A stretch of DNA of 64,000 nucleotides, taken from the NCBI RefSeq assembly GCF_947496485.1, contig NZ_CANMCZ010000004.1:1-64000 (forward strand). The letters are read 5' to 3'. This document shows positions 11,064-63,883 of this stretch, one piece after another. Under the pieces are notes generated by a model. The model saw only the letters and a list, made by a program, of their open reading frames with translations, searched no databases and was not told the DNA's origin. Position 1 is the first letter of the stretch. Each line of letters opens with the position of its first letter. This DNA comes from an uncultured Winogradskyella sp. GTDB lineage: Bacteria; Bacteroidota; Bacteroidia; Flavobacteriales; Flavobacteriaceae. Made by a program: the position numbers and the translations under genes.

Positions 11064-11281
11064 TGATTCTACTTTTAACTTTACTGTAAAATTACTGGCA
11101 TTAAGAAGCAATTATTATGACTAATGTCATACTTTCAAAGAATTATGAATTTTTCAAATTTGGTTAATAATTTTGCATTTTAATCGAGGATTTGTAAAGC
11201 GAAACCGTTTGCGAAATAAAAAGAAAGCGATAATCTACCTTCTTTTTAATATTTTTGGTATTCAAGAAAAGAGAATTATAT

Positions 11282-15466: not shown

Positions 15467-15509
15467 TGAGCAATATCATTTCACAGCTATCGCTTTATAT
15501 ATAGATTTA
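15467..15509 (+). promoter_or_regulatory. FNR/CRP-type box promoter of the lactate dehydrogenase gene (box 1)
   Basis: Box TGAGCAATATCA at 15467-15478; the -7 element TAGATTTA (15502-15509) starts 29.5 nt from the box centre. This is the first box met along the window; the next gene starts at 15536. Confidence 0.75.
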
Positions 15510-18515: not shown

Positions 18516-18558
18516 TAAAGGTATTTTTAACAACACTAGTATGAAATGATATTCATCA
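18516..18558 (-). promoter_or_regulatory. FNR/CRP-type box promoter of the HMA operon (box 2)
   Basis: Box TGATATTCATCA at 18547-18558, -7 element TACCTTTA on the minus strand (18523-18516), centre-to--7 distance 29.5 nt. Confidence 0.75.
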
Positions 18559-18569
18559 GTGTTTTGATA

Positions 18570-18612
18570 TGATGATTATCATTTTAATTCATTCATTAAA
18601 CATCTAAATTTG
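18570..18612 (+). promoter_or_regulatory. FNR/CRP-type box promoter of the MCE transport operon (box 3)
   Basis: Box TGATGATTATCA at 18570-18581, -7 element TAAATTTG (18605-18612), distance 29.5 nt. It lies 11 bases from box 2; each divergent operon has its own box in correct register. Confidence 0.8.
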
Positions 18613-24192: not shown

Positions 24193-24266
24193 TAAATTTA
24201 TGATTTCTTTCTACGATTCTAAATGATATAAATCATTTCAGTTTAACTTATTTATAGCTTCTTTTA
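24193..24266. promoter_or_regulatory. Bidirectional FNR/CRP-type box promoter (box 5)
   Basis: One box, TGATATAAATCA at 24224-24235, has a perfect -7 element on the minus side (TAAATTTA, 24200-24193) and a one-mismatch element on the plus side (TTCTTTTA, 24259-24266), each 29.5 nt from its centre. It serves the coiled-coil/UbiB operon and the gene at 24326. Confidence 0.7.
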
Positions 24267-25847: not shown

Positions 25848-25890
25848 CAAAATTAAAGTGGTTATTAGAATCATGAAATGACCTCAGTCA
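25848..25890 (-). promoter_or_regulatory. FNR/CRP-type box promoter of the YceI-like gene (box 7)
   Basis: Box TGACCTCAGTCA at 25879-25890, -7 element TAATTTTG on the minus strand (25855-25848), in register. Confidence 0.72.
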
Positions 25891-27621: not shown

Positions 27622-27664
27622 CAAAGGTATAGTCAGAGCTAAGACTGTACAATGATATTGGTCA
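27622..27664 (-). promoter_or_regulatory. FNR/CRP-type box promoter of the beta-barrel operon (box 8)
   Basis: Box TGATATTGGTCA at 27653-27664, perfect -7 element TACCTTTG on the minus strand (27629-27622), in register. Confidence 0.78.
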
Positions 27665-33475: not shown

Positions 33476-33518
33476 CAAAACTACTAGCTTTCAGTGATTT
33501 AAAAAATGATATTGGTCA
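33476..33518 (-). promoter_or_regulatory. FNR/CRP-type box promoter of the bactofilin-like operon (box 11)
   Basis: Box TGATATTGGTCA at 33507-33518, perfect -7 element TAGTTTTG on the minus strand (33483-33476), in register. Confidence 0.78.
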
Positions 33519-33560
33519 TTAGTATACCCAAAAACTAACATTGAAAATAGAGTTTCAAAA

Positions 33561-33603
33561 TGATATATATCATTGATTAAAAGGTGAGTAGATGTTTATT
33601 TTG
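33561..33603 (+). promoter_or_regulatory. FNR/CRP-type box promoter of the flavoprotein operon (box 12)
   Basis: Perfect palindrome TGATATATATCA at 33561-33572; TTATTTTG (33596-33603) is in register with one mismatch. Transcription would start near 33608, after the first possible start of the gene. Confidence 0.65.
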
Positions 33604-43343: not shown

Positions 43344-43357
43344 TCTACTAATTTTTA

Positions 43358-43400
43358 TAAAAATAAATTTAGAATTCAATATTATCAATGAGAGATATCA
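43358..43400 (-). promoter_or_regulatory. FNR/CRP-type box promoter of the phosphatidyltransferase gene (box 15)
   Basis: Box TGAGAGATATCA at 43389-43400, -7 element TATTTTTA on the minus strand (43365-43358), in register. Confidence 0.72.
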
Positions 43401-43453: not shown

Positions 43454-45418
43454 TTAGGCGGCTTTGTAGCGCAGTAATCTTAGAGCATTTAAAACAACAA
43501 CAATAGTAGAACCTTCGTGAAAAGCAACTGCTAAACCAATATTTGTAAGTCCTAAAATAGTTACAGGAACTAACATTACTACAACACCAAGACTAATAAA
43601 AATGTTTTGCTTTATAGTACGCTTAGATTTTCTGCTTAATCCTATCAGAAATGGTAAGTTTTCAATTTTATCCGACATCAAAGCTACATCTGCGGTTTCC
43701 AAAGCAACGTCGCTACCTGCTGCTCCCATAGCAACGCTAACTGTACTTAATGCCATTGCAGGAGCATCATTTACACCATCTCCAACCATTGCTATTTTTT
43801 TATAGCGTTTAATAAGCGCTTTTATTTCTGTGACTTTATCTTCTGGTAATAAATTGCCTTTTGCTTCAGTAAGACCAATTTGGTTGGCAATAGCATCTCC
43901 TACATTTTGATGATCTCCAGTAAGCATTACCATATGTTTTATGCCAATTTTTTTTAATTCTTTTAATGTATTTGCCGCAGTTTTTCGTGGTAAATCCATA
44001 ACACTGATTAAACCAATAATTTCACTTTTATAAGCTACAAGCATTACGGTTTGTCCTAGGTTTAAAAGATTTTGCATTTTACTACTGATTGTTTCATCTA
44101 TTGAAATGCCTTTGTCTCTCATCAACTTTACGTTACCTATAAAAACCGCATCATTGTTGTATTGCGCTTGTATGCCTTTGCCTTGAATAGCATTGACATC
44201 AGTGGCCTTATTTTGAGATTCAATGTTGTATTTTACTCTTATATCTTTGGCTATGGCTTTTGCCAATGGATGATTACTTAAACTTTCTACTTCTAAGACT
44301 ATTCTAATAAACTCTTCTTTATCAAAATTATCAACAGGAATGATATGAGTTAGTTTTGGTTTACCTTCGGTCAGTGTGCCAGTCTTATCAAAGGCAATGG
44401 TTGTTATTTCACCCAAGTCTTCTAGTGCTTTTCCACCTTTAATTAGTACGCCTTTTTGCGCGGCTCTAGCGATACCACTTAATACAGCGCTTGGCGTAGA
44501 AATAGCCAAAGCACAGGGACTGGCAGCCACTAACACTGTTATTGCTCTATATAAGCTCGTATTAAAACTTTCGTCAATGATTAAATAAGCAAAACATAAT
44601 GAAAAGACCACAATGATGACTAATGGTACATACCATTTTTCGAACTTTTTGGTCAATCGTTGTGTTGGAGATTTTTGAGTTTCTACTTCACTCACCATTT
44701 TTATTAATCGCGATACTGTTGAGTCTTTACTTAGTTTTAATACTAAAACTTCGAGGCTATTATCTCCGTTAATAGTTCCGGTATAGACCACATGCTTTTT
44801 ATCAATTTCCGTAAACTGTGGTAAACTAGAGGTGCTTTTAATATAAGTTTTATCCACTGGGATGCTTTCTCCGGTTATTGGAGCTTGATTAATACTACTA
44901 CTCCCAGTAATAATAACACCATCAGCGGCAATTTTTGTGTTAGGTTTTACAACAACAACATCACCTATTTTTAAATCATTTATAGTAATTTCTTCGAGTT
45001 TACCATCTTTTTTAATGAGAGCAGTTTTAGGTGAAAGTTTATTGAGAGCTTCAATAGATTTTTTAGCTTTATTCATGGCATAGTGCTCTAAAGCATGCCC
45101 TAAACTAAAGAGAAAGAGTAGAAGCGCTCCTTCTGCCCAACTATTAATATATGCAGCACCTGCAGCTGCAGCAATCATTAAAAAATCAATATCAAAGCCA
45201 CCTTTAATGATTTTTTTAGAGGCTTCAATAGTAATAAAATAGCCTCCAAAAAAATAAGCAATTATGTAGCTTACTAATGCAGTCCAATTGGGTAAGGCGC
45301 TTAATTTTTCTATTGAAAAGCCAATAACTAGAAAAATACCACAGAGAATAGCAAAATAGAGTTCGGTTTTATTTCCAAAAACGTTGCTGTGCTGGTGGCT
45401 TACTTCTTTATGTTTCAT
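43454..45418 (-). CDS. P1B-4-type heavy-metal translocating ATPase
   Basis: 654 residues. Seen are the phosphorylation loop DKTGTLTEGKP, the actuator loop containing ITGESIPVDK, and the hinge MVGDGVNDAPAMA. The ion-binding helix reads ASPCALAIS (SPC, not CPC), and the last membrane segment has HEGSTIVVVLNALRLL. SPC plus HEGxT and no N-terminal HMA domain define subgroup P1B-4, whose members export Co, Fe(II) or related divalent ions. The short N-terminus has a few histidines (HKEVSHQHS). It lies divergent to a lipoprotein gene over box 16. Confidence 0.9.
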   Translation of the reverse strand: MKHKEVSHQHSNVFGNKTELYFAILCGIFLVIGFSIEKLSALPNWTALVSYIIAYFFGGYFITIEASKKIIKGGFDIDFLMIAAAAGAAYINSWAEGALLLFLFSLGHALEHYAMNKAKKSIEALNKLSPKTALIKKDGKLEEITINDLKIGDVVVVKPNTKIAADGVIITGSSSINQAPITGESIPVDKTYIKSTSSLPQFTEIDKKHVVYTGTINGDNSLEVLVLKLSKDSTVSRLIKMVSEVETQKSPTQRLTKKFEKWYVPLVIIVVFSLCFAYLIIDESFNTSLYRAITVLVAASPCALAISTPSAVLSGIARAAQKGVLIKGGKALEDLGEITTIAFDKTGTLTEGKPKLTHIIPVDNFDKEEFIRIVLEVESLSNHPLAKAIAKDIRVKYNIESQNKATDVNAIQGKGIQAQYNNDAVFIGNVKLMRDKGISIDETISSKMQNLLNLGQTVMLVAYKSEIIGLISVMDLPRKTAANTLKELKKIGIKHMVMLTGDHQNVGDAIANQIGLTEAKGNLLPEDKVTEIKALIKRYKKIAMVGDGVNDAPAMALSTVSVAMGAAGSDVALETADVALMSDKIENLPFLIGLSRKSKRTIKQNIFISLGVVVMLVPVTILGLTNIGLAVAFHEGSTIVVVLNALRLLRYKAA

Positions 45419-45439: not shown

Positions 45440-45513
45440 CAAAATTAACCATCTTTATAATAATGCTAACTGACCGTTATCATTGTGATACCAATGTTAA
45501 TCAAATATTTTTA
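45440..45513. promoter_or_regulatory. Bidirectional FNR/CRP-type box promoter (box 16)
   Basis: One box, TGACCGTTATCA at 45471-45482, has perfect -7 elements at 29.5 nt on both sides: TAATTTTG on the minus strand (45447-45440) for the ATPase and TATTTTTA on the plus strand (45506-45513) for the lipoprotein. Confidence 0.8.
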
Positions 45514-46197: not shown

Positions 46198-47118
46198 TTA
46201 AGATGATTTTGTCTGATCGACATTAACTTTCAAATCTGGTATTTTAACTAGTTCTATTGTTGTGGATGCTAGAAGGATTTTGCCCTTTGTATTTTTAATT
46301 TCCAGTCTTATTTTTTCATTTAAAATATGCTTAACATAGCGGCGTTTTTTAAAGTCCACTATATATCTTAAATTAAACTGAACCCAATTATCTGTAAGTG
46401 ATATGGCCAAGGTTGGATCTATTTGCGCGTCTTCTACGTAATACTTATTCACTACACTTTTCCATTCTGATTTAGAATTTGTAGTATATTCTGAAAGCGT
46501 TTCAGAAGCTATTTTTATAATGATTGATTTTGCTAAGTCGATATCAGATCCATATCTGATAGGTAAATTAAATTCATCCCATATAAATGGAAAGTCTTTC
46601 GAGTAATTATAAACTGGCCCTTTGAAAACAAAGGCATTACTCAATTTTACAATCCGACCACTATAATTATCACTGCTTACCCATTGACCAATTTCCATCA
46701 TGGTAGTATATATGCTATCTACATCAATCACATCACCTTTAATTCCATTAATTTCAATACGATCTCCAGGCTTATACACCTTTACCAGAAAAATATACAT
46801 TGAGCCAGCTATACTTAATATGAGTTCTTGAAGTGTAAATGCTAATCCTGCGGTGAATAAGCCAATTATTATAGTGAAGTCTTTTATGCTACCAGAAAAA
46901 TATGTTATTGCTAAAATGATTAATAAAACGTAGCCTATAATTTCTATTCCTTTTTGTGCTTTGTAACGAATTATTGTATTGGAAATCTTCGTTTTTAAAT
47001 AACTTCTTATTAATTGAATTGTCATTAAAACGATGACTAATAATATTATGAACTTTATAATGCTCCAAATGAACGGATTATCTTTAATCCATTCGTTTAT
47101 AAGTTCTATAGTAGTCAT
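46198..47118 (-). CDS. MscS-type mechanosensitive ion channel
   Basis: 306 residues: three or four membrane helices in the first 110, then the MscS pore and beta domain with AGLAFTLQELILSIAGSMYIFL, VYKPGDRIEINGIKGDVIDVD and LSNAFVFKGPVYNYS. The family opens under membrane tension to release solutes. The cytosolic part has a long alpha/beta end. It is the minus side of box 17 and convergent with the preceding lipoprotein gene. Confidence 0.88.
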   Translation of the reverse strand: MTTIELINEWIKDNPFIWSIIKFIILLVIVLMTIQLIRSYLKTKISNTIIRYKAQKGIEIIGYVLLIILAITYFSGSIKDFTIIIGLFTAGLAFTLQELILSIAGSMYIFLVKVYKPGDRIEINGIKGDVIDVDSIYTTMMEIGQWVSSDNYSGRIVKLSNAFVFKGPVYNYSKDFPFIWDEFNLPIRYGSDIDLAKSIIIKIASETLSEYTTNSKSEWKSVVNKYYVEDAQIDPTLAISLTDNWVQFNLRYIVDFKKRRYVKHILNEKIRLEIKNTKGKILLASTTIELVKIPDLKVNVDQTKSS

Positions 47119-47137
47119 TGACCATTAATTTATAATG

Positions 47138-47211
47138 TAAAATTAGTTGATGGTTTTAATATTAAAAATGAGCAATATCATTTCAATTATTCTTACTTAT
47201 TAGTTCTTTTA
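47138..47211. promoter_or_regulatory. Bidirectional FNR/CRP-type box promoter (box 17)
   Basis: Box TGAGCAATATCA (47169-47180), the same 12-mer as box 1. Minus-strand -7 element TAATTTTA (47145-47138) is perfect; plus-strand TTCTTTTA (47204-47211) has one mismatch. It serves MscS and the gene at 47231. Confidence 0.7.
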
Positions 47212-47921: not shown

Positions 47922-48806
47922 TTATCTTAATTTTGATAATTCTGTAAAGAGTTCTTTTTCCTTAATTGATAGTTTTGTTGGTGTCTTTATATTAAAAGTA
48001 ACATACAAATCACCAAACTGACCTTCTTTTTTATATCTAGGAAAACCTTTGCCTTTTAGTTTTACCTTTGTACCGTTTTGGGTTTCTGGTTTTACCTTCA
48101 ATTTCGCTTTACCATCGAAAGTATTTACCATTATTTCACCACCTAAAACTGCTTTATATAAATCTAAATCGATCGAAACATTAAGGTTATCACCATCTCT
48201 TCTAAATTGTGTTTTATTTATTATTGAAAACTCAATAAACAAGTCGCCATTTGGTCCTCCATTAACACCTTTACCGCCATGGCCTTTTATTTTTATAATT
48301 TGCCCATTTTCAACACCTGCAGGAATTGTAATTCGTATATTTTTATTGTTTACCGTTAATGTTCGCTTATGTGTGGTATAAACATCTTTGAGATTCAGTT
48401 GCAATTGCGCATTAAAATCTTGACCTTTAAATTTCACCTTTTGACCACGAAATTGCGATGAGCCTCCACCAAACATAGAGCCAAAAAAGTCTGAAAAATC
48501 TTCTTCAGAATAGCCTCCATATGGATCTCTTGTGCTTCGCTGATATTGTTCTTGGTGTTTGGCTTTTTCGTATTCCTCGGCATGTTGCCAATGTTCCCCA
48601 TATTCATCGTATTTTTTACGATTTTCTGCATTGCTTAATACCTCATTAGCTTCATTGATATCTTTAAATTTTTGCTCAGCGTCCTTATCATTTGGATTAA
48701 GATCTGGATGGTATTTACGAGCCAGCTTACGATATGCCTTTTTTATATCGTTCTCAGATGCGGTTTTAGAGACTCCTAATATTTTATAATAATCAATGAA
48801 TGCCAT
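47922..48806 (-). CDS. cbpA: DnaJ-type co-chaperone CbpA
   Basis: 294 residues. The J domain (about 4-70) has the HPD motif in [15 protein letters not shown]; a glycine-rich linker ([19 protein letters not shown]) follows, then the two beta-sandwich substrate domains (about 120-290), with no zinc-finger cysteines, as expected for CbpA rather than DnaJ. It stimulates DnaK under stress. It is followed by cbpM and preceded by a small helical protein gene, all from box 18. Confidence 0.92.
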
Positions 48807-49041: not shown

Positions 49042-49084
49042 TAAAATTAGCTTTTAATAGAGTAATTAGAAATGATTAATATCA
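49042..49084 (-). promoter_or_regulatory. FNR/CRP-type box promoter of the cbpA-cbpM operon (box 18)
   Basis: Box TGATTAATATCA at 49073-49084, -7 element TAATTTTA on the minus strand (49049-49042), in register. Confidence 0.75.
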
Positions 49085-52116: not shown

Positions 52117-53202
52117 CTAATATGCCAGTTTAGACTGTAAGGCTATGTATTCATTTAAGTTAATTGCATCTATTGCACCAAGTATTTTGCCCTGGTTAAC
52201 AACAGGCAAGTATATTTGTTTTTTGCTGTATATAAGTTGATGAATTTTCTTGAGATTATCAGTTTCTTTTACGGTTTCAAAGTTTGTGTCCATAACTGCT
52301 TCTACAAGAATATTCTTATTAGAATTTTCTATTATTTTTTCATGTCTTAAAACGCCTTTTATTATGCCATTTTCTACCACAGCAAAATTAATTTCGGTTC
52401 CAGATATTAATTTATTCACTACAAGATCGATAGAGTCTTTAGGTTTAAAGGTTGTAATATCTAGCAACATGGCTTCTTCAACAGTGTGATTTTTCAGAAG
52501 TTCTAAATGTTGCACAGTTTGGTTCTCTGCATAAGCACCTAAAAAAATGAATAATGCTATAAATATGAGAATTGGATTATAAAGCAATCCTATGAGTAAA
52601 AATATAATAGCAATAAACTGACCAAGACTTGCGGCAATTTGAGTTGCTTTTGCACGATTCATTTTTAGAGCTAACAATGCTCTTAATAATCGGCCACCAT
52701 CCATAGGAAATGCAGGTATCATATTAAATAACGCTAAAGCAACATTGACTATAAATAAGAAGAACAAGAAATTTTGAAATGAAAAACTTGCAAAAATGCC
52801 GTAAGCATCTGTAAAACTTTGATTGAAAAGTTCCTTAACCGGAATAACAAAATAAAGCAAAATTGCTATAGCAAGATTAACCAAAGGTCCGGCAATGACA
52901 ATAAGAAACTCTTGTTTTGGTGATTCTGGCATTTTATCAAAACTCGCCATACCACCAATAGGCAGTAAAGTTATTTTTTCGGTTTTAACACCAATTTTTT
53001 TTGCTGTTAAAGCATGTCCCAATTCATGCAACACAACACATAAAAAAACTGCAAACACAAAAGCTATATTGAATAAAATACTTTCTGTACTTCCACCATG
53101 TTTCAATTCATCAACAATAATCCAGACTATTAGAAGAAAAAACGTCCAATGCACTTTTATTTTAATTCCTGAAACACGACCTAAGCTTAAGTTTGCTTTC
53201 AT
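52117..53202 (-). CDS. M50 site-2 protease with C-terminal CBS pair
   Basis: 361 residues: six membrane helices with the zinc site [16 protein letters not shown] near residue 60 and the second motif [19 protein letters not shown] near 160, as in rseP/SpoIVFB-type intramembrane proteases. Two CBS domains follow from about 235 to 355; the ATP-sensing pattern is weak. Such proteases cleave membrane-bound regulators or signal peptides. It lies in the box 19 operon with an ABC/HlyD system. M50-CBS proteins are known as energy-state-sensing proteases. Confidence 0.9.
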
Positions 53203-53215
53203 TTTTAATCATTTT

Positions 53216-53836
53216 TTAAACTTGGTCTTTAATTTTAACGATAGCCCACGTTTTGTTTTTGCGCTTAACGGCATAAATATTGTCTGCTAAGTACCTTGAA
53301 GTAATTTGAGGGATTCCACCAAAAAAATCCTTATCCAATACGACATTAACACCATCTTGAGTGAGGTAGTATGTAATTTCTCCATCGGTATTAACAAGCA
53401 CTTCAAAATATCTGTAATTCACTATATTTTTGTCTAAGGCAGTATTTTTACCAATAACTTGTTTATCTAATTTAAGAGCGATAGCTACTTCGTTATAAAA
53501 ATTTGTCGAATTCAGAAATTCTGGTTTTATTACTGTTTTTCCTGATTTATCGATAAAACCAAAATAGGAGATGCCTTCTCTAATCTCAACGATTTGGCAT
53601 CTGTCATTATTGAAAATAGGATAATGGCCATCGTCATTCTCTGTAAGGACTAAATCTGTTCTATAGTCTATGATCAGTTGAGCTTCTTTATTTATAAAAG
53701 CCCATTTGCCATCTTTTTTAATTGCAGCCACATCATCGTGAAATGGAGAAATAAAATCTAGATTCTCAATAGATTGTGCAAATCCAAAAATTGGAATTAT
53801 AACTAATGCTAAACATAAAATTGCTAACTTTTTCAT
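53216..53836 (-). CDS. WG-repeat-like secreted protein
   Basis: 206 residues with a signal peptide (LALVIIPIFGFAQS). The mature part contains WG-type repeats (KKDGKWAFINKEAQLIIDYR and YFGFIDKSGKTVIKPEF), short beta segments with G/K/W spacing and an aspartate or lysine turn. The family binds carbohydrate or protein partners in some cases; function here is unknown. First gene of the five-gene operon from box 19. Confidence 0.75.
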   Translation of the reverse strand: MKKLAILCLALVIIPIFGFAQSIENLDFISPFHDDVAAIKKDGKWAFINKEAQLIIDYRTDLVLTENDDGHYPIFNNDRCQIVEIREGISYFGFIDKSGKTVIKPEFLNSTNFYNEVAIALKLDKQVIGKNTALDKNIVNYRYFEVLVNTDGEITYYLTQDGVNVVLDKDFFGGIPQITSRYLADNIYAVKRKNKTWAIVKIKDQV

Positions 53837-53863: not shown

Positions 53864-53906
53864 CAAAATTAGGACTAGTATAATTATTAAGAAATGATAT
53901 TTATCA
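53864..53906 (-). promoter_or_regulatory. FNR/CRP-type box promoter of the M50/ABC operon (box 19)
   Basis: Box TGATATTTATCA at 53895-53906, perfect -7 element TAATTTTG on the minus strand (53871-53864), in register. Confidence 0.8.
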
Positions 53907-53947: not shown

Positions 53948-54361
53948 TTATTTACCTTTTTTTAATTCAATATTAAGTTTCGCAAGTAATATGACTTCTG
54001 ATTTATTTTGGCCAGAAAAACTAGCTGAGATTTCTCCTGCTGTTTTTAGAATCAATGAATTTATATTATCTGTAAAAATAGATTCGTTTTGTTTTTTGAA
54101 GTTTATAAAACTGTTATAACAGGCTTCAGCATCATACTCACGGTCATCTCTAAGCCATTTAAAAGTCTCTATTATATTAGCTTTCAGGTTGTTCGCAGAA
54201 CTATCTTCAATAATACTTTTACTTAGCCAATACTTTTTAACCAATTTTTCTAAGACTTCAAATTCTTCATCTCTAACAGAATTATCTATTGCTGCTATGG
54301 CATAAAATAGTTTACCAAGGTTTTGGTAAAACTGGAATAGTGTATTGTGATTTAAATCCAA
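53948..54361 (-). CDS. Small helical protein, TerB-like
   Basis: 137 all-helical residues. The segment FYAIAAIDNSVRDEEFEVLEKLV resembles the first metal-binding helix pair of TerB-like (tellurite resistance/COG3793) proteins, with an acidic D-x-x-V-x-x-E-E turn. The rest is less typical. It is divergent from the sensor kinase over box 20. Confidence 0.6.
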   Translation of the reverse strand: MDLNHNTLFQFYQNLGKLFYAIAAIDNSVRDEEFEVLEKLVKKYWLSKSIIEDSSANNLKANIIETFKWLRDDREYDAEACYNSFINFKKQNESIFTDNINSLILKTAGEISASFSGQNKSEVILLAKLNIELKKGK

Positions 54362-54380: not shown

Positions 54381-54454
54381 TGAAATTAAAGTAACTAATC
54401 GTCAATTTCAATGATATAAATCAGTTTTAAGTAATCACTAAACTTATACCTTTG
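54381..54454. promoter_or_regulatory. FNR/CRP-type box promoter of the sensor kinase (box 20), possibly bidirectional
   Basis: Box TGATATAAATCA at 54412-54423. Plus-strand TACCTTTG (54447-54454) is a perfect -7 in register and leads into the kinase/regulator operon, implying autoregulation. On the minus side TAATTTCA (54388-54381) fits with one mismatch for the TerB-like gene. Confidence 0.8.
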
Positions 54455-54519: not shown

Positions 54520-56400
54520 ATGCTTCAACAAGATCAAGAAATATTTAACATACTTCTAGAGGCCGTTTCTGAAGGCGTCATTATTGTTGACAATCAGCAG
54601 CATATAATGGAAGTAAATGCAACTGCCGAAGTTATGTTTGGCTATAAAAAAAGTGAATTATTTCAAAAAGATTTAAATCTACTTATTCCTTCAAATTATC
54701 ACGCAAGTCACGCTAATCATTTCGAAAAATTCATAGAACAAGGCAAGAAAAGACCCATGGGTAAAGCCTCTGATATTTATGGCTTGAAAAAGACAGGTGA
54801 TATTTTTGATATTGAGGTAGAATTAAGCCCTTTTACAATTTACAACAAGACCTACGTTATGGCTTTGGTCAGAGATATTTCAGGGCTAAAAGAGACTGAG
54901 AAAAACTTAATGCTTAAGAGTATAGCTCTTCAATCTGCTAGTAACGGCATTATTATCACAGATGCCTTAAAAAAAGACAACCCTGTTATTTATTTTAATT
55001 CAGCTTTTCAGAGGTTAACAGGCTATTCTAGCAAAGAAATACTTAATCATAATTGTAGATTTTTACAAGGTAAGGACAGAGATCAGAAACCGCTAAAAAA
55101 ATTAAGAAAAGCTATTGATAAGGGTGAAAGTTGCCAAGTTATATTGCGTAATTATAAAAAGGATGGTTCTTTATTCTGGAATGATTTATACATAATGCCA
55201 ATTATTGATAAACATGGTGTAGTAACCAATTTTATTGGGATTCAAAATGATGTTACCTTAAGAAAAAAAGCTGAGGCAGAGCGAAATCACTTAGCCACAA
55301 TTTTTGATGAATCTTTAAATGAAATATATGTTTTTGATAGTAAAACATTGCAGTTTATAAATGTTAATTATGGTGCCCTAAAAAACATAGGTTACACTAT
55401 TGAAGAATTAAAAACAATGACACCTCTAGATTTAAAAATTCAGGAGGATGAAGTTAATTTTAAAAATAATATAGAGACCTTACGAAAAAAGAATGTTGAA
55501 AAATTAGAGTTTGAAACCATTCATCAACGAAAAGATGGTACAACTTATCCTGTAGAAGTCCATTTACAGTTGAGTAACTTAGGAGAAGTAGAGGTTTTTG
55601 TAGCTATAATTTTAGATATCACCGAAAGAAAAAATTATACAGAAAAACTCGAAAATAAAGTAGAGGAACGCACAAAGCAGCTCAATGAAGCTTTATCTAA
55701 AGAAAAAGAACTTAATGAGCTTAAAACAAAATTTTTGTCTCTGGTATCGCACGAGTTTAAAACCCCTTTAAGTGGTATTTTAACATCATCAGTTTTACTT
55801 AGCAAGTACACTTTAAGCAGTCAACAGCAAAAACGCGATAAGCATGTTAAAATCATTGCAGATAAGGTTCAGTACTTAACTTCTATTCTTAACGATTTTC
55901 TGTCGCTAGAACAGTTAGAAACAGGTAAACTAAATTATAATTTCACTAATTTTAAACTGAGTAAAGTTATCGATGAAGTTATTTATAATGCCAATATGTT
56001 ACTAAAGAAAGGACAGTCCATAAAGTATCCAGACAATATAGATGATCTATCACTCTATCAAGATGAAAAGAGTATTACTTTAATACTATCTAATTTAGTG
56101 AATAATGCCATAATATATTCTCATGAACATAAAGCTATTAGCATCTTTGTTAACCAAAATGAAACAGAAACCACAATAAAAATTGAAGATGAAGGTATTG
56201 GTATTCCTTTAAAAGATCAAAATAACATTTTTGATCGCTATTATAGAGCAGAAAATGTTAGTAATACCCAAGGCACAGGTATTGGTCTTAATATTGTTAA
56301 AAACCATTTAGAAAATTTAGGTGGTACTATTACTTTTGAAAGTAAAGAAAATACAGGTACAACATTTACTATTACTATTCCTAATACAGCTACAAAATGA
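54520..56400 (+). CDS. PAS-LOV-PAS sensor histidine kinase
   Basis: 626 residues, no membrane segment, so cytosolic. PAS1 (about 8-125) is of the FixL type: the stretch YHASHANHFEKFI aligns with the FixL region that holds the heme histidine, with His64 in that position; the FixL distal arginine is not obvious. PAS2 (about 130-252) is a LOV domain with NHNCRFLQG (photoactive Cys179) and typical FWNDLYIMPI and FIGIQNDVT. PAS3 (about 258-372) is generic. A coiled coil leads to HisKA with phospho-accepting His411 in LVSHEFKTPL, and an HATPase domain with NLVNNA and DEGIGIP. The next gene overlaps by 4 bases. Confidence 0.9.
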   Translation: MLQQDQEIFNILLEAVSEGVIIVDNQQHIMEVNATAEVMFGYKKSELFQKDLNLLIPSNYHASHANHFEKFIEQGKKRPMGKASDIYGLKKTGDIFDIEVELSPFTIYNKTYVMALVRDISGLKETEKNLMLKSIALQSASNGIIITDALKKDNPVIYFNSAFQRLTGYSSKEILNHNCRFLQGKDRDQKPLKKLRKAIDKGESCQVILRNYKKDGSLFWNDLYIMPIIDKHGVVTNFIGIQNDVTLRKKAEAERNHLATIFDESLNEIYVFDSKTLQFINVNYGALKNIGYTIEELKTMTPLDLKIQEDEVNFKNNIETLRKKNVEKLEFETIHQRKDGTTYPVEVHLQLSNLGEVEVFVAIILDITERKNYTEKLENKVEERTKQLNEALSKEKELNELKTKFLSLVSHEFKTPLSGILTSSVLLSKYTLSSQQQKRDKHVKIIADKVQYLTSILNDFLSLEQLETGKLNYNFTNFKLSKVIDEVIYNANMLLKKGQSIKYPDNIDDLSLYQDEKSITLILSNLVNNAIIYSHEHKAISIFVNQNETETTIKIEDEGIGIPLKDQNNIFDRYYRAENVSNTQGTGIGLNIVKNHLENLGGTITFESKENTGTTFTITIPNTATK

Positions 56401-57455
56401 CTACAATTTTAATCATCGAAGATGACGCAGTGTTAAGAGACAATACTGCCGAATTATTAGAACTTTCTAACTACAACGTCATTACAGCACCAAATGGAAA
56501 AGTAGGTGTTGATATGGCAAGAAAGCAACTACCAGATATTATTATATGCGATATTATGATGCCAGAGCTTGATGGTTATGAAACACTTAAGACCTTGTCT
56601 CTTAATGAAACTACAAAGTACATTCCATTTATTTTTCTTTCAGCAAAAACCGAACATAAAGATATTAGAAAAGGAATGGATTTGGGAGCAGATGATTATA
56701 TAACTAAACCTTTTAGTGAAGATGAGCTTATTAGCGCCATTGAAAGTCGTCTTGCCAAAGCTGCTATACTAAAAGACTATAGACAAAAGGAGCAAAACTC
56801 AATTGCAAAATCAGATACTGAAGAAATTAAATCCTTAAATGACTTAAAAAATTATTTTGATGATTACGGAACTGTTTTTACTGTAGAAAAGGATACTATT
56901 ATTTATAGAGAAGGGGATCATTCTAATTATATCTATCTTTTATCAAAAGGTAGTGTTAAGTGTCACATAATTGATGAGCAAGGAAAGGAATTAATTACTG
57001 CATTATACAAAGAAGATGATTTGTTTGGTTTTTCTTCATTCATTAATAATAATCTACCCTATAAAGAAACAGCAACAGCCATAGATGATGTAGAAATGCT
57101 AGGCATTTCCGCAATGAAGTTTAATGAGATATTAAATGAAAATCATAAAGTAACTATGGAACTTATACAGTTATTGTCTGACGATCTTGCAACCATGAAA
57201 AATCAACTTTTAGAAATGGCCTATGGATCTGTTAATCGAAAAACAGCTGCAACTATTATAAAGTTTGCAGAAAAAATTAATCGAAAACCCGAAGATGCCA
57301 TTAAAATTTCTAGAAGTGATTTAGCAAGTGTAGCTGGTATAGCTACTGAAACCTTAATCAGAGCTTTAACTAGTTTTAAAAAGCAGGGACTCATTAAAAT
57401 TGATGGTAGAAATATAAAAGTTTTAGACATCTCTAAGTTAAAGCATATAGCTTAA
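56397..57455 (+). CDS. Receiver domain fused to CRP/FNR-type regulator
   Basis: 352 residues. REC domain 1-122: acidic pocket IIEDD, phospho-acceptor Asp52 in ICDIMMPELDG, Ser82 and Lys104 in DYITKPFSE. A cNMP-binding-like domain follows (about 157-290, with YREGDHSNYIYLLSKG) and then an HTH_Crp domain (about 292-352). Its recognition helix GIATETLIRAL keeps Glu318 and Arg322, the residue pair that in FNR and CRP reads the TGA/TCA half-sites; the intervening FNR serine is isoleucine. No N-terminal FNR cysteine cluster. ATGA overlap with the LOV kinase shows the pair works together. Inferred: binds the 27 boxes of this island. Confidence 0.92.
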   Translation: MTTILIIEDDAVLRDNTAELLELSNYNVITAPNGKVGVDMARKQLPDIIICDIMMPELDGYETLKTLSLNETTKYIPFIFLSAKTEHKDIRKGMDLGADDYITKPFSEDELISAIESRLAKAAILKDYRQKEQNSIAKSDTEEIKSLNDLKNYFDDYGTVFTVEKDTIIYREGDHSNYIYLLSKGSVKCHIIDEQGKELITALYKEDDLFGFSSFINNNLPYKETATAIDDVEMLGISAMKFNEILNENHKVTMELIQLLSDDLATMKNQLLEMAYGSVNRKTAATIIKFAEKINRKPEDAIKISRSDLASVAGIATETLIRALTSFKKQGLIKIDGRNIKVLDISKLKHIA

Positions 57456-57467
57456 TATTCGTAAATA

Positions 57468-57510
57468 TGACTTATATCATTTTCATTGACATATCTTACT
57501 AATAAATTTG
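57468..57510 (+). promoter_or_regulatory. FNR/CRP-type box promoter of the first Usp gene (box 21)
   Basis: Box TGACTTATATCA at 57468-57479, perfect -7 element TAAATTTG (57503-57510), in register, immediately after the regulator gene. Confidence 0.8.
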
Positions 57511-57528
57511 TAGGAAAGTTGATGTGTG

Positions 57529-58377
57529 ATGAAAAATATTCTCTTACCCACAGATTTTTCTGAAAATTCATGGAATGCTATAAAATATGCGATTCATTTT
57601 TTCGGAAAAATAGAATGTAATTTTTACTTATTGCATGTATGCAGATTTGATAATTTGGCAGTTGCTGATTCTTCATTAACTCTAAATCAAGAAGTAATTG
57701 ATAATATTTACACTAAGCCTACTAAGCAAAAATTACGTTCTACATTAAAGCAGATTTTGAAACTCATACCTAATCATAAAAATCATAAATTCTATACGCT
57801 TACAGACTACGGGTTTTTTATAGAATCTATTCGCAAAAATGTTGAAGAAAAGCATATAGATTGTATTGTAATGGGCACAAAAGGTGCTTCAGGATTAGAA
57901 AGAATAATCTTAGGGACCAATACAGCAGATGTTATTACCAAAGTAAAATGCAATGTGTTTGCTATTCCTGAAAATGCCGAATATATACCACCAAAAGAAA
58001 TTGCCTTTCCAACAGATTTCTCATTATCTCATAGTTTACAGGTTTTGCAACCAATGACTGAAATTATAGAACGGTTCAATGCTTCTTTAAGAATTCTTCA
58101 TATCAGTAAGAAAAAGGCAGATTTAAATGATGATCAAAAGAATAACAAAGAATTACTAGTGGATTATTTTAATAATCACGATTTCACTTTTCATTATTTA
58201 ACAAACAAAAAAGTAGAAGATGCAGTGCAATGTTTTGTAGAGAGTAGAGATATTAATTTAATATGTATGGTTGCTAAAAATCTGAATTATTTTCAGCAAA
58301 TATTATTTCATTCTAGAATTGAGAAGATAAGTTATCATACAGATGTACCATTTTTGGTATTACACGAAAAAAACTAA
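57529..58377 (+). CDS. Tandem-domain universal stress protein
   Basis: 282 residues, two UspA folds in one chain. The first half starts KNILLPTDFSENS and carries the ATP-binding G-x2-G-x9-G-(S/T) motif in MGTKGASGLERIILGTN; the second half (from about 155, EIAFPTDFSLSH) has lost it. The ATG at 57529 is used; an overlapping GTG at 57526 would add one residue. Box 21 lies 50 bases upstream. First of six Usp genes at this end of the window. Confidence 0.92.
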   Translation: MKNILLPTDFSENSWNAIKYAIHFFGKIECNFYLLHVCRFDNLAVADSSLTLNQEVIDNIYTKPTKQKLRSTLKQILKLIPNHKNHKFYTLTDYGFFIESIRKNVEEKHIDCIVMGTKGASGLERIILGTNTADVITKVKCNVFAIPENAEYIPPKEIAFPTDFSLSHSLQVLQPMTEIIERFNASLRILHISKKKADLNDDQKNNKELLVDYFNNHDFTFHYLTNKKVEDAVQCFVESRDINLICMVAKNLNYFQQILFHSRIEKISYHTDVPFLVLHEKN

Positions 58378-58783: not shown

Positions 58784-58826
58784 TGATAAAGATCAGTGAC
58801 AATGGTTTACTATCTGTTTATTTTTG
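58784..58826 (+). promoter_or_regulatory. FNR/CRP-type box promoter of small RNA 1 (box 22)
   Basis: Box TGATAAAGATCA at 58784-58795, perfect -7 element TATTTTTG (58819-58826), in register. The first base of the RNA hairpin, 58831, is 12 nt from the -7 start. Confidence 0.8.
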
Positions 58827-59561: not shown

Positions 59562-60008
59562 TTAAAACATAATATTTTGGTAAATCATAGATTTAAGCTC
59601 TTTTGGTAGTTCGCTTCTTAAGTCTTCTAATTCGCCTAATGAGATGTATTTACGCAATAGAATAAATGTAGTGTCAATATAATTTGAAGCAACTTCATCA
59701 GACTCAAAATCATGGATAGAAGTTACACCGTCATAAGCTCTCACTACATCGATAAATTCGGTCATGTTTTTAATCTTTTCTTTTTTATGAAGTGTCCAGC
59801 CATTAACATAAACGGCTTTTAAAAACATTGGGAATTGAGCAATGAGTTGCAAGGATTCTTGTGTAGAAACTACATCTCTCAATCCATGAAGAATGGATGA
59901 TAATATTCGTCCTGCTTTTTCTGTATCATCACCAATGTTTAATCCCTTTGTATATTCTTTTAAGAATGTGTTGGCTTCTGTCGCGAACTTATTAAAATTT
60001 AGTGCCAT
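59562..60008 (-). CDS. DUF2267 family protein
   Basis: 148 residues, all helical, with the DUF2267 pattern: KAGRILSSILHGLRDVVSTQESLQLIAQFPMFLKAVYVNGW near the middle and a C-terminal repeat ELEDLRSELPKEL. Function is unknown; members are often seen in stress regulons with Usp and heat-shock genes. It is a single gene from box 23, facing away from the small RNA 2 unit. Confidence 0.82.
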   Translation of the reverse strand: MALNFNKFATEANTFLKEYTKGLNIGDDTEKAGRILSSILHGLRDVVSTQESLQLIAQFPMFLKAVYVNGWTLHKKEKIKNMTEFIDVVRAYDGVTSIHDFESDEVASNYIDTTFILLRKYISLGELEDLRSELPKELKSMIYQNIMF

Positions 60009-60128: not shown

Positions 60129-60171
60129 TGATATTTATCAGTTGCTATTAATTAATTTCTATTTATGTTTA
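60129..60171 (+). promoter_or_regulatory. FNR/CRP-type box promoter of small RNA 2 (box 24)
   Basis: Box TGATATTTATCA at 60129-60140, perfect -7 element TATGTTTA (60164-60171), in register. The RNA hairpin begins at 60176, again 12 nt after the -7 start. Confidence 0.8.
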
Positions 60172-60325: not shown

Positions 60326-60368
60326 TGATAATTATCATAGTTTTTGAGTTATCTACTAGTTAACTTTA
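60326..60368 (+). promoter_or_regulatory. FNR/CRP-type box promoter of the Usp pair at 60394 (box 25)
   Basis: Perfect palindrome TGATAATTATCA at 60326-60337, perfect -7 element TAACTTTA (60361-60368), in register. Confidence 0.8.
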
Positions 60369-60393
60369 CTAGTGAATGCAAAAACAAGTACCA

Positions 60394-61242
60394 ATGTTTT
60401 CAATACTGCTTCCTACCGATTTCTCCGAAAATGCAATGAATGCAATCAAATATGCCTTAGAATTTTTTAAGTACCATAAAACGGAATTCTATTTTATGCA
60501 TGCTTACCAAAACGAATTTTATGATAGTGAAGAATTGGTGTCTAGAGATGTGTATGATGATATTCTAGATTCAGTTAGTAAACAATCTCAAAGTGGGTTA
60601 GAGGAGCTACTAACAAAAGTTAAACAAATTGCTCCTAACCCTAGATATAATTATCATACAATTTCAGCTTTTAATACACTTGTTGAAGAGTCAAATTCTA
60701 TCGCCGATAAGTATAATATAGATTTGATTGTTATGGGAACAAAAGGCAAATCTAACGATCGAAATATTGTTTTCGGAAGCCGAACATTTCAGGTCTTAAA
60801 GTATGTGCAGTGTCCTGTGCTTGCTATACCATCTAACTATTCTAATACACAACCAAAGCATATTTTATTCCCTACAAATTATTTGATACCAAATAGGCGT
60901 AGAGAATTAAAATTATTATCAGAATTGGCGAAACCTTACAGAAGCGAAATAGATGTTTTATACATTTCTAAAAGCGATAAATTATCAATGCGCCAAGAAG
61001 ATAATAAAGCTTTTATAGCAGACACACTAAGAGATAATAAAGTAAATTTTTGTAATGAGGACAGCAATAAAATAGCAGAATCTATAAAAAATTATATCAA
61101 AGAAAAAAATATAGACATTATTGCTATGGTAAATACACAGCATTCCTTTTTAGAGGATATGCTATTTCCTTCAGAGATCGATAAAGTGAGTTTAGGATTA
61201 GACATCCCATTATTAGCATTGCAAAACACTATACGCAATTAA
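60394..61242 (+). CDS. Tandem-domain universal stress protein
   Basis: 282 residues with two UspA domains: FSILLPTDFSENA at the start, ATP motif MGTKGKSNDRNIVFGSR, and a second domain starting HILFPTNYLIP without the motif. The ATG at 60394 is chosen over the one at 60376: it aligns with the other Usp starts, and the transcript from box 25 should begin near 60373. Followed after 12 bases by another Usp gene. Confidence 0.92.
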   Translation: MFSILLPTDFSENAMNAIKYALEFFKYHKTEFYFMHAYQNEFYDSEELVSRDVYDDILDSVSKQSQSGLEELLTKVKQIAPNPRYNYHTISAFNTLVEESNSIADKYNIDLIVMGTKGKSNDRNIVFGSRTFQVLKYVQCPVLAIPSNYSNTQPKHILFPTNYLIPNRRRELKLLSELAKPYRSEIDVLYISKSDKLSMRQEDNKAFIADTLRDNKVNFCNEDSNKIAESIKNYIKEKNIDIIAMVNTQHSFLEDMLFPSEIDKVSLGLDIPLLALQNTIRN

Positions 61243-61254
61243 AAAAATAGTATC

Positions 61255-62100
61255 ATGAAACATATACTTTTACCAACAGATTTTTCCGAAAATTCTTGGA
61301 ATGCCATTACTTATGCTATCAAACTTTTCAAAAATGAAAAGTGTGTTTTTCATTTGTTAAATACCTATACACCTGTAATATATCATGTTGAATATGTTCT
61401 AGGTTATCCTGCTCAATTTGGATTGGGAGATGCTGTTAGAAATACGTCGCAAGAAAACTTAAAAGAATTGGTGGAAAGAATTTCTATAGAATTTCCTAAT
61501 AATCCCAATCATAAATTTGAAACTTTAGCGAGGTTCGATACTTTGATTTCTGGCATAAAGGAATTTTTGAACAAGCACAAAACGCATATTATAGTTATGG
61601 GTACCAAAGGTGCTACAGGAGCTAAAGAAGTATTATTTGGCTCTAATACAGTAAATGTGTTTAATGAAATAAAATATCCTGTTTTGGCAATTCCATCTGA
61701 TTTTGAATATGAAAATCCGCTCGAAATATTATTTCCTACAGATTTAGAAGCTAACTATAAAGACACGCAACTTAGTTTATTGAAAGAAATTGCAAAGTCT
61801 CATAATTCTAGAATTAATGCTATGCACGTATCAACTGGCTATGAATTAACAGAAGAACAAATCAGTAAAAAGCAAGAGCTAGAAACTTTGTTTAAAGACA
61901 ATTCATATCTGTTCCATGACTTAAGAAGCATGAATGTAGATGAGGCTATTAATGAATTTCAGATTAAAACAAAAACCAACATGTTGGTAATGATTAATAA
62001 CAAGCATTCATTTTTTGAAAATTTATTTTTTCAATCTAAAGTCAAACAAATTGGATTTCATTTACATATTCCATTTTTGGTAATTCCTTCAGCACACTGA
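61255..62100 (+). CDS. Tandem-domain universal stress protein
   Basis: 281 residues: KHILLPTDFSENSWNAITYA at the start, ATP motif MGTKGATGAKEVLFGSN, second domain at EILFPTDLEA without the motif. It follows the previous Usp gene by 12 bases in one operon. Its TGA stop (62098-62100) is the first half-site of box 26. Confidence 0.92.
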   Translation: MKHILLPTDFSENSWNAITYAIKLFKNEKCVFHLLNTYTPVIYHVEYVLGYPAQFGLGDAVRNTSQENLKELVERISIEFPNNPNHKFETLARFDTLISGIKEFLNKHKTHIIVMGTKGATGAKEVLFGSNTVNVFNEIKYPVLAIPSDFEYENPLEILFPTDLEANYKDTQLSLLKEIAKSHNSRINAMHVSTGYELTEEQISKKQELETLFKDNSYLFHDLRSMNVDEAINEFQIKTKTNMLVMINNKHSFFENLFFQSKVKQIGFHLHIPFLVIPSAH

Positions 62101-62140
62101 TTGAAATCATTTCGTTAGGACATTGTAGGCACTAACTTTA
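62098..62140 (+). promoter_or_regulatory. FNR/CRP-type box promoter of the Usp pair at 62164 (box 26)
   Basis: Box TGATTGAAATCA at 62098-62109, perfect -7 element TAACTTTA (62133-62140), in register. The first three bases are the stop codon of the upstream Usp gene. Confidence 0.8.
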
Positions 62141-62163
62141 AAATGAAATTAAAGACTTAAGTC

Positions 62164-63000
62164 ATGAAAAAAAATATCTTACTACCCACGGATTTTTCAG
62201 ACAATGCTTGGAGTGCAGCCGTATATGCTTTTAAACTATATGCAGAGGAACAATGCACATTTTATTTCTTGCACTCGTCCAAAATGAGAGTTTCGACTAT
62301 GTCTAACATATCTAATAAATTAACGTTGATTATGGCAGAAAATGCCAAGAAAGAACTCTCGGAATTAAAGGCAATGGCAGAAAATGCTAAAGTTAATGCC
62401 AACCATAGTTTCCAGATTATTCTAAGCACCGATGATTTGGAAGATGCAATGGAAACTGCAATTCAAGAGCACAAGATAGATCTTGTTGTTATGGGTACAA
62501 AAGGTACGACAAAGGCTAAAGAAATTGTTTTTGGAAGTAATACTGTAACCGTTATTAAAAGGGTAAAGAGTTGCCCAGTTATGGCCGTACCAGATGAATT
62601 TGATTTTGTAGAACCAGAGCAAATTGCTTTTCCAACAGACTTTAACCGTTTTTATGGTGAAGAGTTAGATCCACTAAAACGTTTATCAAAACTCCATAAT
62701 TCTAAAATTAGAATAGTTCATATTAATAAAGAAGACGATCTCTCAGATTTACAAAGCTACAATTTAGCAATGCTAAAAGCTTATTTAGAAGATTATCCTC
62801 ATAGTTTTCATTGGATGCCAGACTACGGTAAAAAAGAACAAGCCATCAAGGATTTTATTGACGAACTCAATATTAATCTTCTGGTTATGATAAACTATAA
62901 GCACAGTTTTATAGAGAGCATAGTAAAGGAACCAGTTATTAAAAAATTAGGATTTCATCCTACAATTCCATTTCTCGTGATACCATCAAACCAAAAATAA
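62164..63000 (+). CDS. Tandem-domain universal stress protein
   Basis: 278 residues: KKNILLPTDFSDNAWSAAVYA at the start, ATP motif MGTKGTTKAKEIVFGSN, second domain at QIAFPTDFNRFYGEELDPLK. It is very similar to the next gene, including the HSFHWMPDYG and LxNSKIRxVHIN segments, which points to a recent duplication. It is expressed from box 26. Confidence 0.92.
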   Translation: MKKNILLPTDFSDNAWSAAVYAFKLYAEEQCTFYFLHSSKMRVSTMSNISNKLTLIMAENAKKELSELKAMAENAKVNANHSFQIILSTDDLEDAMETAIQEHKIDLVVMGTKGTTKAKEIVFGSNTVTVIKRVKSCPVMAVPDEFDFVEPEQIAFPTDFNRFYGEELDPLKRLSKLHNSKIRIVHINKEDDLSDLQSYNLAMLKAYLEDYPHSFHWMPDYGKKEQAIKDFIDELNINLLVMINYKHSFIESIVKEPVIKKLGFHPTIPFLVIPSNQK

Positions 63001-63006
63001 CCTGTT

Positions 63007-63843
63007 ATGAAACGCTCAATTTTAATACCCACAGACTTTTCGGATAATGCATGGAACGCTATTGTCTATGCTCTTAAATTATATGCAAATGAAGAGTGTA
63101 CGTTTTATTTTTTGCATTCTTGGGCAATTTCAAGGTCAACAGTAAGATCTTATATTACAACACATTACGTTGACTCATTAGAAGGAGATGCTTTAAAAGA
63201 ATTAACAGAACTAAAAGAAATGGCAGAAAATGCCAATGTCAATGCTAATCATAATTTCGAAATCCTTTTGAGTAAAGAAAATTTGATTAAGGCCATTTCG
63301 ACTGCTATAAAAAAGCATAACATAGATTTAGTTGTAATGGGCACTAAAGGTGCAACTAAAGCACAAGAATTTTTCTTTGGAAGCAATACTGTAGATGTCA
63401 TTAAAAAGATGAAGCTCTGTCCGATTTTGGTCGTACCAGATGATTTCGATTTTGTGGAACCTAAGCAAATTGCGTTTCCAACAGATTTTACTAGATTTTA
63501 TGGCGAGGAATTGTTACCTCTAAAGCTCATGTCAGAATTATTCAATTCTAAAATTAGAGTGGTTCATATTAATGAAAAGTCAAGTTTGTCTAAAACGCAA
63601 GACTATAATTTTTCTATGTTGCAAGTCTACTTAGAAGATCAACCACATAGTTTTCATTGGATGCCAGATTATGCAGACAAGGCAGTTGAGATCAATGATT
63701 TTATAGATGAGTTAGATGTTAATATACTTGCTATGATAAACTATGAACATAGTCTTATAGAACGTATAGTTAATGAGCCTATAGTTGCTAAAATAGGATA
63801 TCACCCAGTAATTCCATTCTTGGTTATTCCATGTTCTGTCTGA
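63007..63843 (+). CDS. Tandem-domain universal stress protein
   Basis: 278 residues, a close duplicate of the preceding protein: ILIPTDFSDNAWNAIVYALK, ATP motif MGTKGATKAQEFFFGSN, second domain QIAFPTDFTRFYGEELLPLK. It follows after 6 bases. Its TGA stop (63841-63843) is the start of box 27. Confidence 0.92.
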   Translation: MKRSILIPTDFSDNAWNAIVYALKLYANEECTFYFLHSWAISRSTVRSYITTHYVDSLEGDALKELTELKEMAENANVNANHNFEILLSKENLIKAISTAIKKHNIDLVVMGTKGATKAQEFFFGSNTVDVIKKMKLCPILVVPDDFDFVEPKQIAFPTDFTRFYGEELLPLKLMSELFNSKIRVVHINEKSSLSKTQDYNFSMLQVYLEDQPHSFHWMPDYADKAVEINDFIDELDVNILAMINYEHSLIERIVNEPIVAKIGYHPVIPFLVIPCSV

Positions 63844-63883
63844 TATATATCATTTCAGTTCGAAGTTTTACATATTAATTTTA
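63841..63883 (+). promoter_or_regulatory. FNR/CRP-type box promoter of the last Usp gene (box 27)
   Basis: Perfect palindrome TGATATATATCA at 63841-63852, -7 element TAATTTTA (63876-63883), in register. Its first three bases are the stop codon of the upstream Usp gene. Confidence 0.78.

Follow-up and report, generated by a model that had tools for sequence, protein, structure and literature searches.

The DNA analysed here (the window) is a stretch of 64,000 nucleotides, positions 1 to 64,000 of contig NZ_CANMCZ010000004.1 from an uncultured Winogradskyella sp. of the Flavobacteriaceae. It encodes a histidine kinase with PAS domains, followed by a response regulator whose output half is of the CRP type. 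We consider it quite probable that this pair activates a surrounding island of genes, dominated by universal stress protein (Usp) genes, from operators centred at -41.5, with low oxygen as the likely cue. The pair and its domains lie as follows.

54520..56400, forward strand: partner histidine kinase, 626 amino acids (aa), with a 4-bp overlap with the regulator gene
54943..55257, forward strand: LOV domain of the kinase (PAS2), with the motif NCRFLQG (Pfam, solved-structure matches)
56397..57455, forward strand: response regulator with CRP/FNR-type output, 352 aa (Pfam REC, cNMP_binding and HTH_Crp_2)
56406..56744, forward strand: receiver domain, aa 4-116; codon of the phospho-acceptor Asp52 at 56550-56552
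56880..57143, forward strand: cNMP-type barrel, aa 162-249, lacking the residues that contact cAMP (Pfam, alignment to Vfr/CRP)
57249..57446, forward strand: Crp-type helix-turn-helix (HTH), aa 285-350; Glu318 codon at 57348-57350, Arg322 codon at 57360-57362

A response regulator with a CRP-type output

All three domains of the regulator score above the curated Pfam cut-offs (Response_reg 101 bits, cNMP_binding 64 bits, HTH_Crp_2 49 bits). The best 80 of 565 relatives, 55-77% identical, were taken as orthologues, and counts out of 81 refer to the window together with these 80. The receiver residues Asp9, Asp10, Asp52, Ser82 and Lys104 and the HTH residues Arg306, Glu318 and Arg322 are invariant (81/81). 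A sequence-only reading of this DNA had proposed an intact receiver with Asp52, Ser82 and Lys104, joined in one protein to a cNMP fold and a Crp-type HTH with a Glu318/Arg322 pair in its recognition helix; these residues are placed correctly and the fusion is conserved. It had also described the regulator as free of an iron-sulfur-type cluster, in agreement with the absence of an FNR-type N-terminal cysteine cluster: the sole cysteines are Cys51 and Cys189, and position 189 is Cys in 34 of the 81 sequences.

The AlphaFold2 model (31-row alignment, mean pLDDT 87.5) has a pTM of 0.44, so that it can be relied on for the folds of the domains but not for their arrangement relative to one another. 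In the model a receiver with a long alpha5 extension (108-138) is followed by a beta barrel, a dimerisation-type helix (250-294) like the dimer helix of CRP, and an HTH with its predicted recognition helix at 317-329. All 50 Foldseek matches listed are structures of CRP, GlxR, Clr, Vfr and FNR. In the search by sequence, each of the 60 solved chains listed, out of 133, aligns with one of the two halves, receiver or CRP. Judged by its sequence the regulator belongs both to the response regulators and to the CRP/FNR superfamily. It is classed as neither FNR nor CRP in the strict sense, nor as FixJ or DosR, because the features that define these were looked for and are missing; its output domain, for instance, is HTH_Crp_2 in Pfam and not of the NarL/FixJ type.

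The partner kinase

A kinase core lies directly upstream of the regulator in 78 of the 81 loci; no kinase-core match was found upstream at L080 and L087, and L023 ends at its contig edge. From this adjacency the kinase is the presumed cognate partner of the regulator. Around regulator homologues of 38-43% identity, 15 of 17 loci likewise have a kinase core directly upstream and in the same orientation, the others being L183, with kinase matches on the opposite strand only, and L193, with none.

The window kinase has the layout PAS1-LOV-PAS3-HisKA-HATPase (Pfam, solved-structure matches). The solved structures nearest to PAS1 are DosP (1.2e-14) and FixL (2.2e-9), with LOV proteins far behind. 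The same is seen with the PAS1 of the orthologue L021 (FixL 2.3e-13), where 13 of 15 solved matches are FixL or DosP, counting two which carry other names and which we take to be DosP, and LOV proteins are again far behind. Solved matches of PAS2 include the LOV domains of aureochrome (6i23, E 1e-31) and phototropin. A LOV domain (NCRFLQ motif) is found in 16 kinases, that of the window and 15 of 76 others.

The position of the proximal His of FixL is His in 67 of 77 aligned kinases, including that of the window, while the position of the haem-pocket Arg is Arg in 42 of 77 and Ser in the window kinase. This Arg is kept in 2 of the 16 LOV-bearing kinases vs 40 of the 61 without LOV (Fisher p 1.7e-4, ancestry ignored). 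A His at the FixL proximal position is also present in PAS domains not known to bind haem, so that haem sensing is to be taken as a lead.

Operators at a fixed distance from the -7 element

The window holds 51 TGA-N6-TCA boxes, 33 of them intergenic, in a sequence of which about 12% is intergenic by our own gene list; TGA/TCA pairs with control spacers of 0-5 and 7-14 number 12-29 each. In 21 of the 51 boxes, exactly 23 bp further on, there follows TAnnTTT, the -7 element of Bacteroidota, which puts the box centre 29.5 bp upstream of that element. All 21 are among the 33 intergenic boxes and, one of them serving both directions, they form 22 composites. The number of 27 boxes given in the sequence-only reading is about right and far above chance. 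There are 57 composites in the organism's genome, 22 in the window and 35 in the other 4.05 Mb, compared with 11 for a backwards control. Around the 80 orthologues (1.57 Mb) there are 364 cases of the 23-bp spacing, as against 5-16 for each of the other gaps between 15 and 32 bp, at most 9 for the backwards pattern and at most 10 for other inner spacers with their centre within half a base of the same place. Chance occurrence of the boxes in AT-rich DNA is rejected by the spacing and backwards controls.

The class II position of CRP and FNR is -41.5. According to passages of PMC9723704 the flavobacterial -7 element covers -12 to -5, and because the spacing is fixed this places the box centre at -41.5. 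The boxes are, on these predicted positions, class II operators. The predicted core is a TGAY-N4-RTCA palindrome. Two bases after TCA, 17 of 19 strict sites of the window have a T, compared with 6 of 20 strict sites read in the rest of the genome (p 2e-4). The idea of a strict flank code that would tell the two regulators apart was considered and rejected, since T stands there in only 209 of 339 sites across the 80 loci. A box lies within 400 bp 3' of the regulator gene in 63 of the 81 loci. A box points to the kinase in five, the window among them, and serves the divergent side in 52. We rejected a general autoactivation of the kinase-regulator operon on the ground that kinase-directed boxes are found in 5/81 loci only.

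Predicted targets

The 386 composites of the 81 loci precede 346 distinct genes, 32 of the composites having no open reading frame (ORF) behind them. As the loci were chosen around the regulator, the tally describes its neighbourhood. By Pfam label, Usp genes account for 152 of the 346 targets and are spread over 75 loci. They are followed by a 135-aa TerB-like family (38), WG-repeat genes (16), the ribosome hibernation factor (Pfam Ribosomal_S30AE, 12), a 148-aa family (11), MlaE (10), DnaJ (9), Hsp20 (6), ccoN-FixO (6), hemN (5), the kinase itself (5) and ribonucleotide reductase (2). The 135-aa family, named TerB-like by eye, is divergent from the kinase in the window (53948-54361) and in L026 (7534-7938), and a relative of it gave no Pfam match.

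A second regulator with a similar recognition helix

The organism's genome has five HTH_Crp_2 proteins. One of them, L001 (C3:315907-316581; 1492-2166 of stretch L001, minus strand), is a separate FNR-like protein of 225 aa with six cysteines, which are kept in the two relatives compared (L112, L113). Its recognition helix, TATESAIR, is nearly identical to that of the regulator, TATETLIR. A ccoN-type gene is about 2.8 kb away from the L001 gene, and hemN 10-12 kb. Outside the window, operators with the same core stand before the ccoN-type gene, hemN and a pyruvate-formate-lyase-type gene (pflB-type), and further ones before a PPK2-type gene and cytochrome c, Usp and CBS genes; these gene names were given by eye, with Pfam behind the relatives of ccoN and hemN. 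The view that phosphorylation would control the FNR-like network in this organism with no separate FNR- or FixK-type regulator is not supported as it stands, in view of L001 and of these operators.

Operators track the regulator across genera

We counted strict operators in 110 genomes of the family, one per genus. The regulator was called at E 1e-60, which includes homologues near 40%, and L001-type FNR-like proteins at E 1e-55; they were found in 59 and 70 of the 110 genera, respectively. Strict operators per genome were as follows.

Regulator and FNR-like protein (34 genomes): median 25 (9-44), total 861 vs 19 backwards
Regulator only (25 genomes): median 15 (6-36), total 401 vs 10 backwards
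FNR-like protein only (36 genomes): median 8 (1-28), total 298 vs 22 backwards
Neither protein (15 genomes): median 0 (0-4), total 12 vs 5 backwards

In Mann-Whitney tests that ignore shared ancestry, regulator-only genomes differ from those with neither protein (p 7e-8), and FNR-like-positive genomes with the regulator differ from those without it (p 1e-10). By least squares the regulator adds 16 boxes per genome and the FNR-like protein 8, roughly additively. The possibility that boxes are equally common in relatives without the protein does not hold in this family, where operators track the regulator. An initial sample took 98 genomes of the order, 13 of them with full-length regulator matches; within the family of the window organism it already showed 9-43 strict operators in the 10 genomes with the regulator vs 3-6 in the 7 without (p 5e-5). 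Of 118 genomes sampled across the phylum, 17 have the regulator, all within the class of the window organism. Among the distant homologues, the 11 loci that belong to other families of this class give a weak spacing signal (7 vs 0-3); it is stronger at six loci of families f1 and f4 (14 vs 0-2, 9 of the 14 coming from a single locus).

Genomes in which no L001-type protein was called have the same spacing. In 20 stretches from 10 such genomes the peak is 84 vs at most 4; these stretches overlap, so that a few boxes are counted twice, and two contigs, of G223 and G289, equal those of L074 and L090 in length and are therefore not independent of the 80 loci. The clearest case is G076, in which no L001-type protein was found at E 1e-10 besides the regulator itself. 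Four of its HTH_Crp_2 proteins are over the cut-off and the regulator alone has the Glu/Arg helix; there are still five composites no further than 10 kb from the regulator gene, and a sixth stands at a Usp gene far away. The cases of G034 and G057 are less clear-cut, since at least one further Crp protein with Glu/Arg is present in each. The 21 operators read in these three genomes (9 of 11 sites in G076, 5 of 10 in G034 and 7 of 18 in G057, coding-like matches being left out by eye) stand before Usp genes in six cases, ccoN in two (G034, G057) and hemN in one (G034). In G279 and G223, also without an L001-type protein, operators precede both hemN and ccoN. Among 20 operators read in five FNR-like-only genomes (20 of their 22 strict boxes), ccoN follows in 5 cases, hemN in 4, one other family in 2 and Usp in 1, while 6 stand before genes without a family label and 2 have no ORF.

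Some genomes call for separate mention besides these. G249 has 28 strict operators without a detected regulator, in an assembly with 6% contamination. In G061 ten operators form a second cluster (C1:3862975-3885914) far from the regulator gene at 3386604, which suggests a second island. G248, like G231, has three full-length regulator copies, of a 41-42% type beside a 57-68% type.

Proposed mechanism and alternatives

In the mechanism that we infer, a signal would cause the kinase to autophosphorylate and to transfer phosphate to Asp52. The phosphorylated regulator would then form a dimer making CRP-type contacts with the TGAY-N4-RTCA palindromes and, bound at -41.5, would bring about class II activation of sigma-A promoters, switching on the co-located stress island of mostly universal stress proteins. 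The likeliest cue would be low oxygen, or a redox change linked to it, sensed through the FixL/DosP-like PAS1. Oxygen is favoured because of the relatedness of PAS1, and because the targets resemble a DosR/Anr set and overlap with those of FNR. Since a LOV domain is present in the window strain, and in a minority of relatives, blue light or flavin state may feed in there. At the cbb3, hemN and pflB genes of the organism the same core is probably read by the Cys-rich FNR-like protein.

Several observations weigh against this mechanism. The genus-level test ignores shared ancestry, and its presence calls hinge on E-value thresholds. FNR-like-only genomes carry boxes too, up to 28 in G249, and the operator is for this reason not private to the regulator. 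Other Crp proteins with Glu and Arg occur in some regulator-only genomes (L114, L123, L124, L126) and in the window organism (L005, TAREVVTR). In family f4, where regulator homologues are 41-42% identical, box numbers show no association with the protein (4, 5 and 6 vs 1-11; 3 vs 12 genomes, p 0.56), and no composite lies within about 10 kb of the gene at the three f4 loci; the association of this architecture with the boxes holds in the organism's own family and is absent from f4. Haem sensing in the window strain appears doubtful, because the proximal position is His in 67/77 only and Ser replaces the haem-pocket Arg.

The window boxes might alternatively be read by L001, with the receiver-CRP protein as a target of L001 that acts elsewhere or as a modulator. 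The near-identity of the two recognition helices speaks for this, as do the shared core of the box at the nearby ccoN-type gene and the median of 8 boxes in FNR-like-only genomes. We nevertheless judge it unlikely, since the 25 genomes with the regulator and no L001-type protein have a median of 15 strict boxes and the 15 with neither have 0, since the boxes read in five FNR-like-only genomes stand at ccoN (5) and hemN (4) and only once at Usp, as against the Usp dominance around the regulator, and since the flanks of the window boxes differ from those elsewhere in the genome, although the T is found in no more than 209 of 339 sites of the 80 loci. A stronger contender, although we give it distinctly less than an even chance, is that both proteins read the same operators, so that the island would integrate the phospho-signal with an iron-sulphur or thiol signal and have no sole owner. 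This overlaps with the mechanism proposed above and does not exclude it. The common core, the helix residues shared by L001 and the regulator and the rough additivity of box counts are as it would predict; the differing flanks within the genome, and the differing target sets, in small numbers, where one protein only is present, are not.

In a further reading the cNMP barrel would still bind a nucleotide, so that the regulator would need a ligand as well as phosphate. The barrel shows an intact fold and has cAMP-bound CRP structures among its matches, but in the alignment to Vfr/CRP the cAMP-contact residues are not kept, Phe, Tyr and Lys standing at the positions that we take to be Glu72, Arg82 and Ser83 of CRP. 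Control by cAMP was rejected for this reason, and a need for some ligand seems to us very improbable.

Other operators and genes of the window

The operators of the window are predicted composites (box and -7 element) from the sequence scan and are given here with genes around them.

11088..11129, reverse strand: operator
15467..15508, forward strand: operator, 2-hydroxyacid dehydrogenase 15536
18517..18558, reverse strand: operator
18570..18611, forward strand: operator, MlaE/ABC/MlaD genes from 18623
24194..24235, reverse strand: operator, gene 23796-24167, then ABC1-type kinase gene 22088-23791
25849..25890, reverse strand: operator
27623..27664, reverse strand: operator, outer-membrane barrel gene 27003-27584
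33477..33518, reverse strand: operator
33531..33572, reverse strand: operator
43359..43400, reverse strand: operator, CDP-alcohol phosphatidyltransferase, in the gene list 42747-43388 but probably starting further in
45441..45482, reverse strand: operator, P-type ATPase 43454-45418
45471..45512, forward strand: operator, gene 45535; same box as 45441..45482, opposite direction
47139..47180, reverse strand: operator, gene 46198-47118
49043..49084, reverse strand: operator, about 270 bp upstream of DnaJ-type gene 47922-48806
52117..53202, reverse strand: membrane protein carrying an HELGH motif, labelled M50/CBS-like by eye
53865..53906, reverse strand: operator, WG-repeat protein 53216-53836
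54412..54453, forward strand: operator toward the kinase-regulator operon, class II box and -7 element
57468..57509, forward strand: operator of the next gene (Usp 57526-58377), box and -7 element
57526..58377, forward strand: universal stress protein gene, predicted target (Pfam Usp)
58784..58825, forward strand: operator
59562..60008, reverse strand: DUF2267 gene; nearest box, at 60062, without a -7 element in the scan
60129..60170, forward strand: operator
60326..60367, forward strand: operator, Usp 60376
60376..63843, forward strand: four further universal stress protein genes, predicted targets (Pfam Usp)
62098..62139, forward strand: operator, Usp 62164
63841..63882, forward strand: operator at the window end

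The HELGH-motif gene sits 13 bp behind the WG-repeat gene and is perhaps also served by the operator at 53865-53906. Two intergenic boxes, at 21982 and 22024 (TGAGCGCAGTCA, TGATTGCGCTCA), lie downstream of a gene and have no -7 element; their appearance is that of a terminator or dispersed repeat rather than of operators.

Relation to known systems

In the FixL-FixJ-FixK system of rhizobia, the output of FixJ is of the NarL type and FixK is a protein of its own. The system described here resembles it in having a kinase whose first PAS domain is FixL-like, a response regulator, and an output of the CRP/FNR type that is predicted to act on TGA-type sites; in some relatives without an L001-type protein it does so also in the boxes before ccoN- and hemN-type genes. 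It differs in that receiver and CRP output form one chain and that the main targets are stress genes; in the window organism, moreover, the operators of ccoN and hemN are found away from the island, close to the FNR-like gene. FNR binds TTGAT-N4-ATCAA, acts from the class II position and has a Glu/Arg recognition pair. FNR and ANR are thus matched in the near-FNR operator core, the class II position, the Glu/Arg pair and some common targets, while the regulator differs from them in having a receiver domain and no cysteine cluster.

In DosRST (DevRS), as predicted here, a kinase and a response regulator act directly on a dormancy set, and ctpF belongs to the DosR regulon. The targets are alike as well, with Usp and a P-type ATPase here and Hsp20, the hibernation factor and ribonucleotide reductase in relatives; according to passages of PMC1950094, the devR regulon of Mycobacterium tuberculosis takes in six of eight Usps together with nrdZ and hspX. 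The output of DosR is, however, of the NarL type according to the abstract of PMC3029386, so that the output domains are unrelated and the likeness is one of target set only. In Myxococcus xanthus, passages of PMC11841059 describe a low-oxygen set with a Usp, cbb3 oxidase and HemN under comparable kinase/response-regulator control by NmpRSTU, which unlike the present pair has an NtrC-like regulator and a protoglobin-type sensor.

By analogy, the system would work like FixL-FixJ-FixK with the last two merged, or as a Bacteroidota counterpart of DosRS. We speculate further, while holding it to be rather unlikely, that as such a counterpart of DosRS/FixLJ-FixK the fused regulator is a phospho-controlled equivalent of FNR. 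In flavobacterial genera where the L001-type protein is missing it would have taken over the FNR operators at ccoN and hemN in addition to the stress island, and in a minority, with LOV-bearing kinases that have mostly lost the haem-pocket Arg, the dormancy switch would respond less to oxygen and more to blue light or the flavin redox state. Boxes at ccoN or hemN in G034, G223 and G279, and the 25 of 59 regulator genera without an L001-type protein, are consistent with a takeover. The description of the regulator as a global FNR-like one can be kept in part: in the window organism it has an island regulon, and takeover from FNR is indicated only at ccoN/hemN in some relatives lacking the L001-type protein.

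Significance

Direct control of low-oxygen and dormancy stress genes is usually divided among separate regulators, and to our knowledge regulators of such genes have been little described in Bacteroidota. We found no description of a receiver-CRP regulator in titles and abstract beginnings of open-licence papers, which does not establish its absence in print, and none in passages of PMC8510549, PMC4618731, PMC9953108, PMC9239204 and PMC5847659. The pairing of receiver and CRP domain is itself modular and may already stand in censuses of output domains. What appears surprising, and open to testing, is the proposed direct phospho-control of an FNR-like operator network, together with its quantitative tracking across genera.

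The exact position of the operators at -41.5 makes targets predictable genome by genome. If the proposed mechanism is true, one switch of two genes, present in 59 of 110 genera of the family, directly controls a Usp-rich quiescence set, and a CRP-type output would be another way to build a DosR-like system. The family would then also offer a test case for the sharing and takeover of operators between cysteine-based and phospho-controlled regulators.

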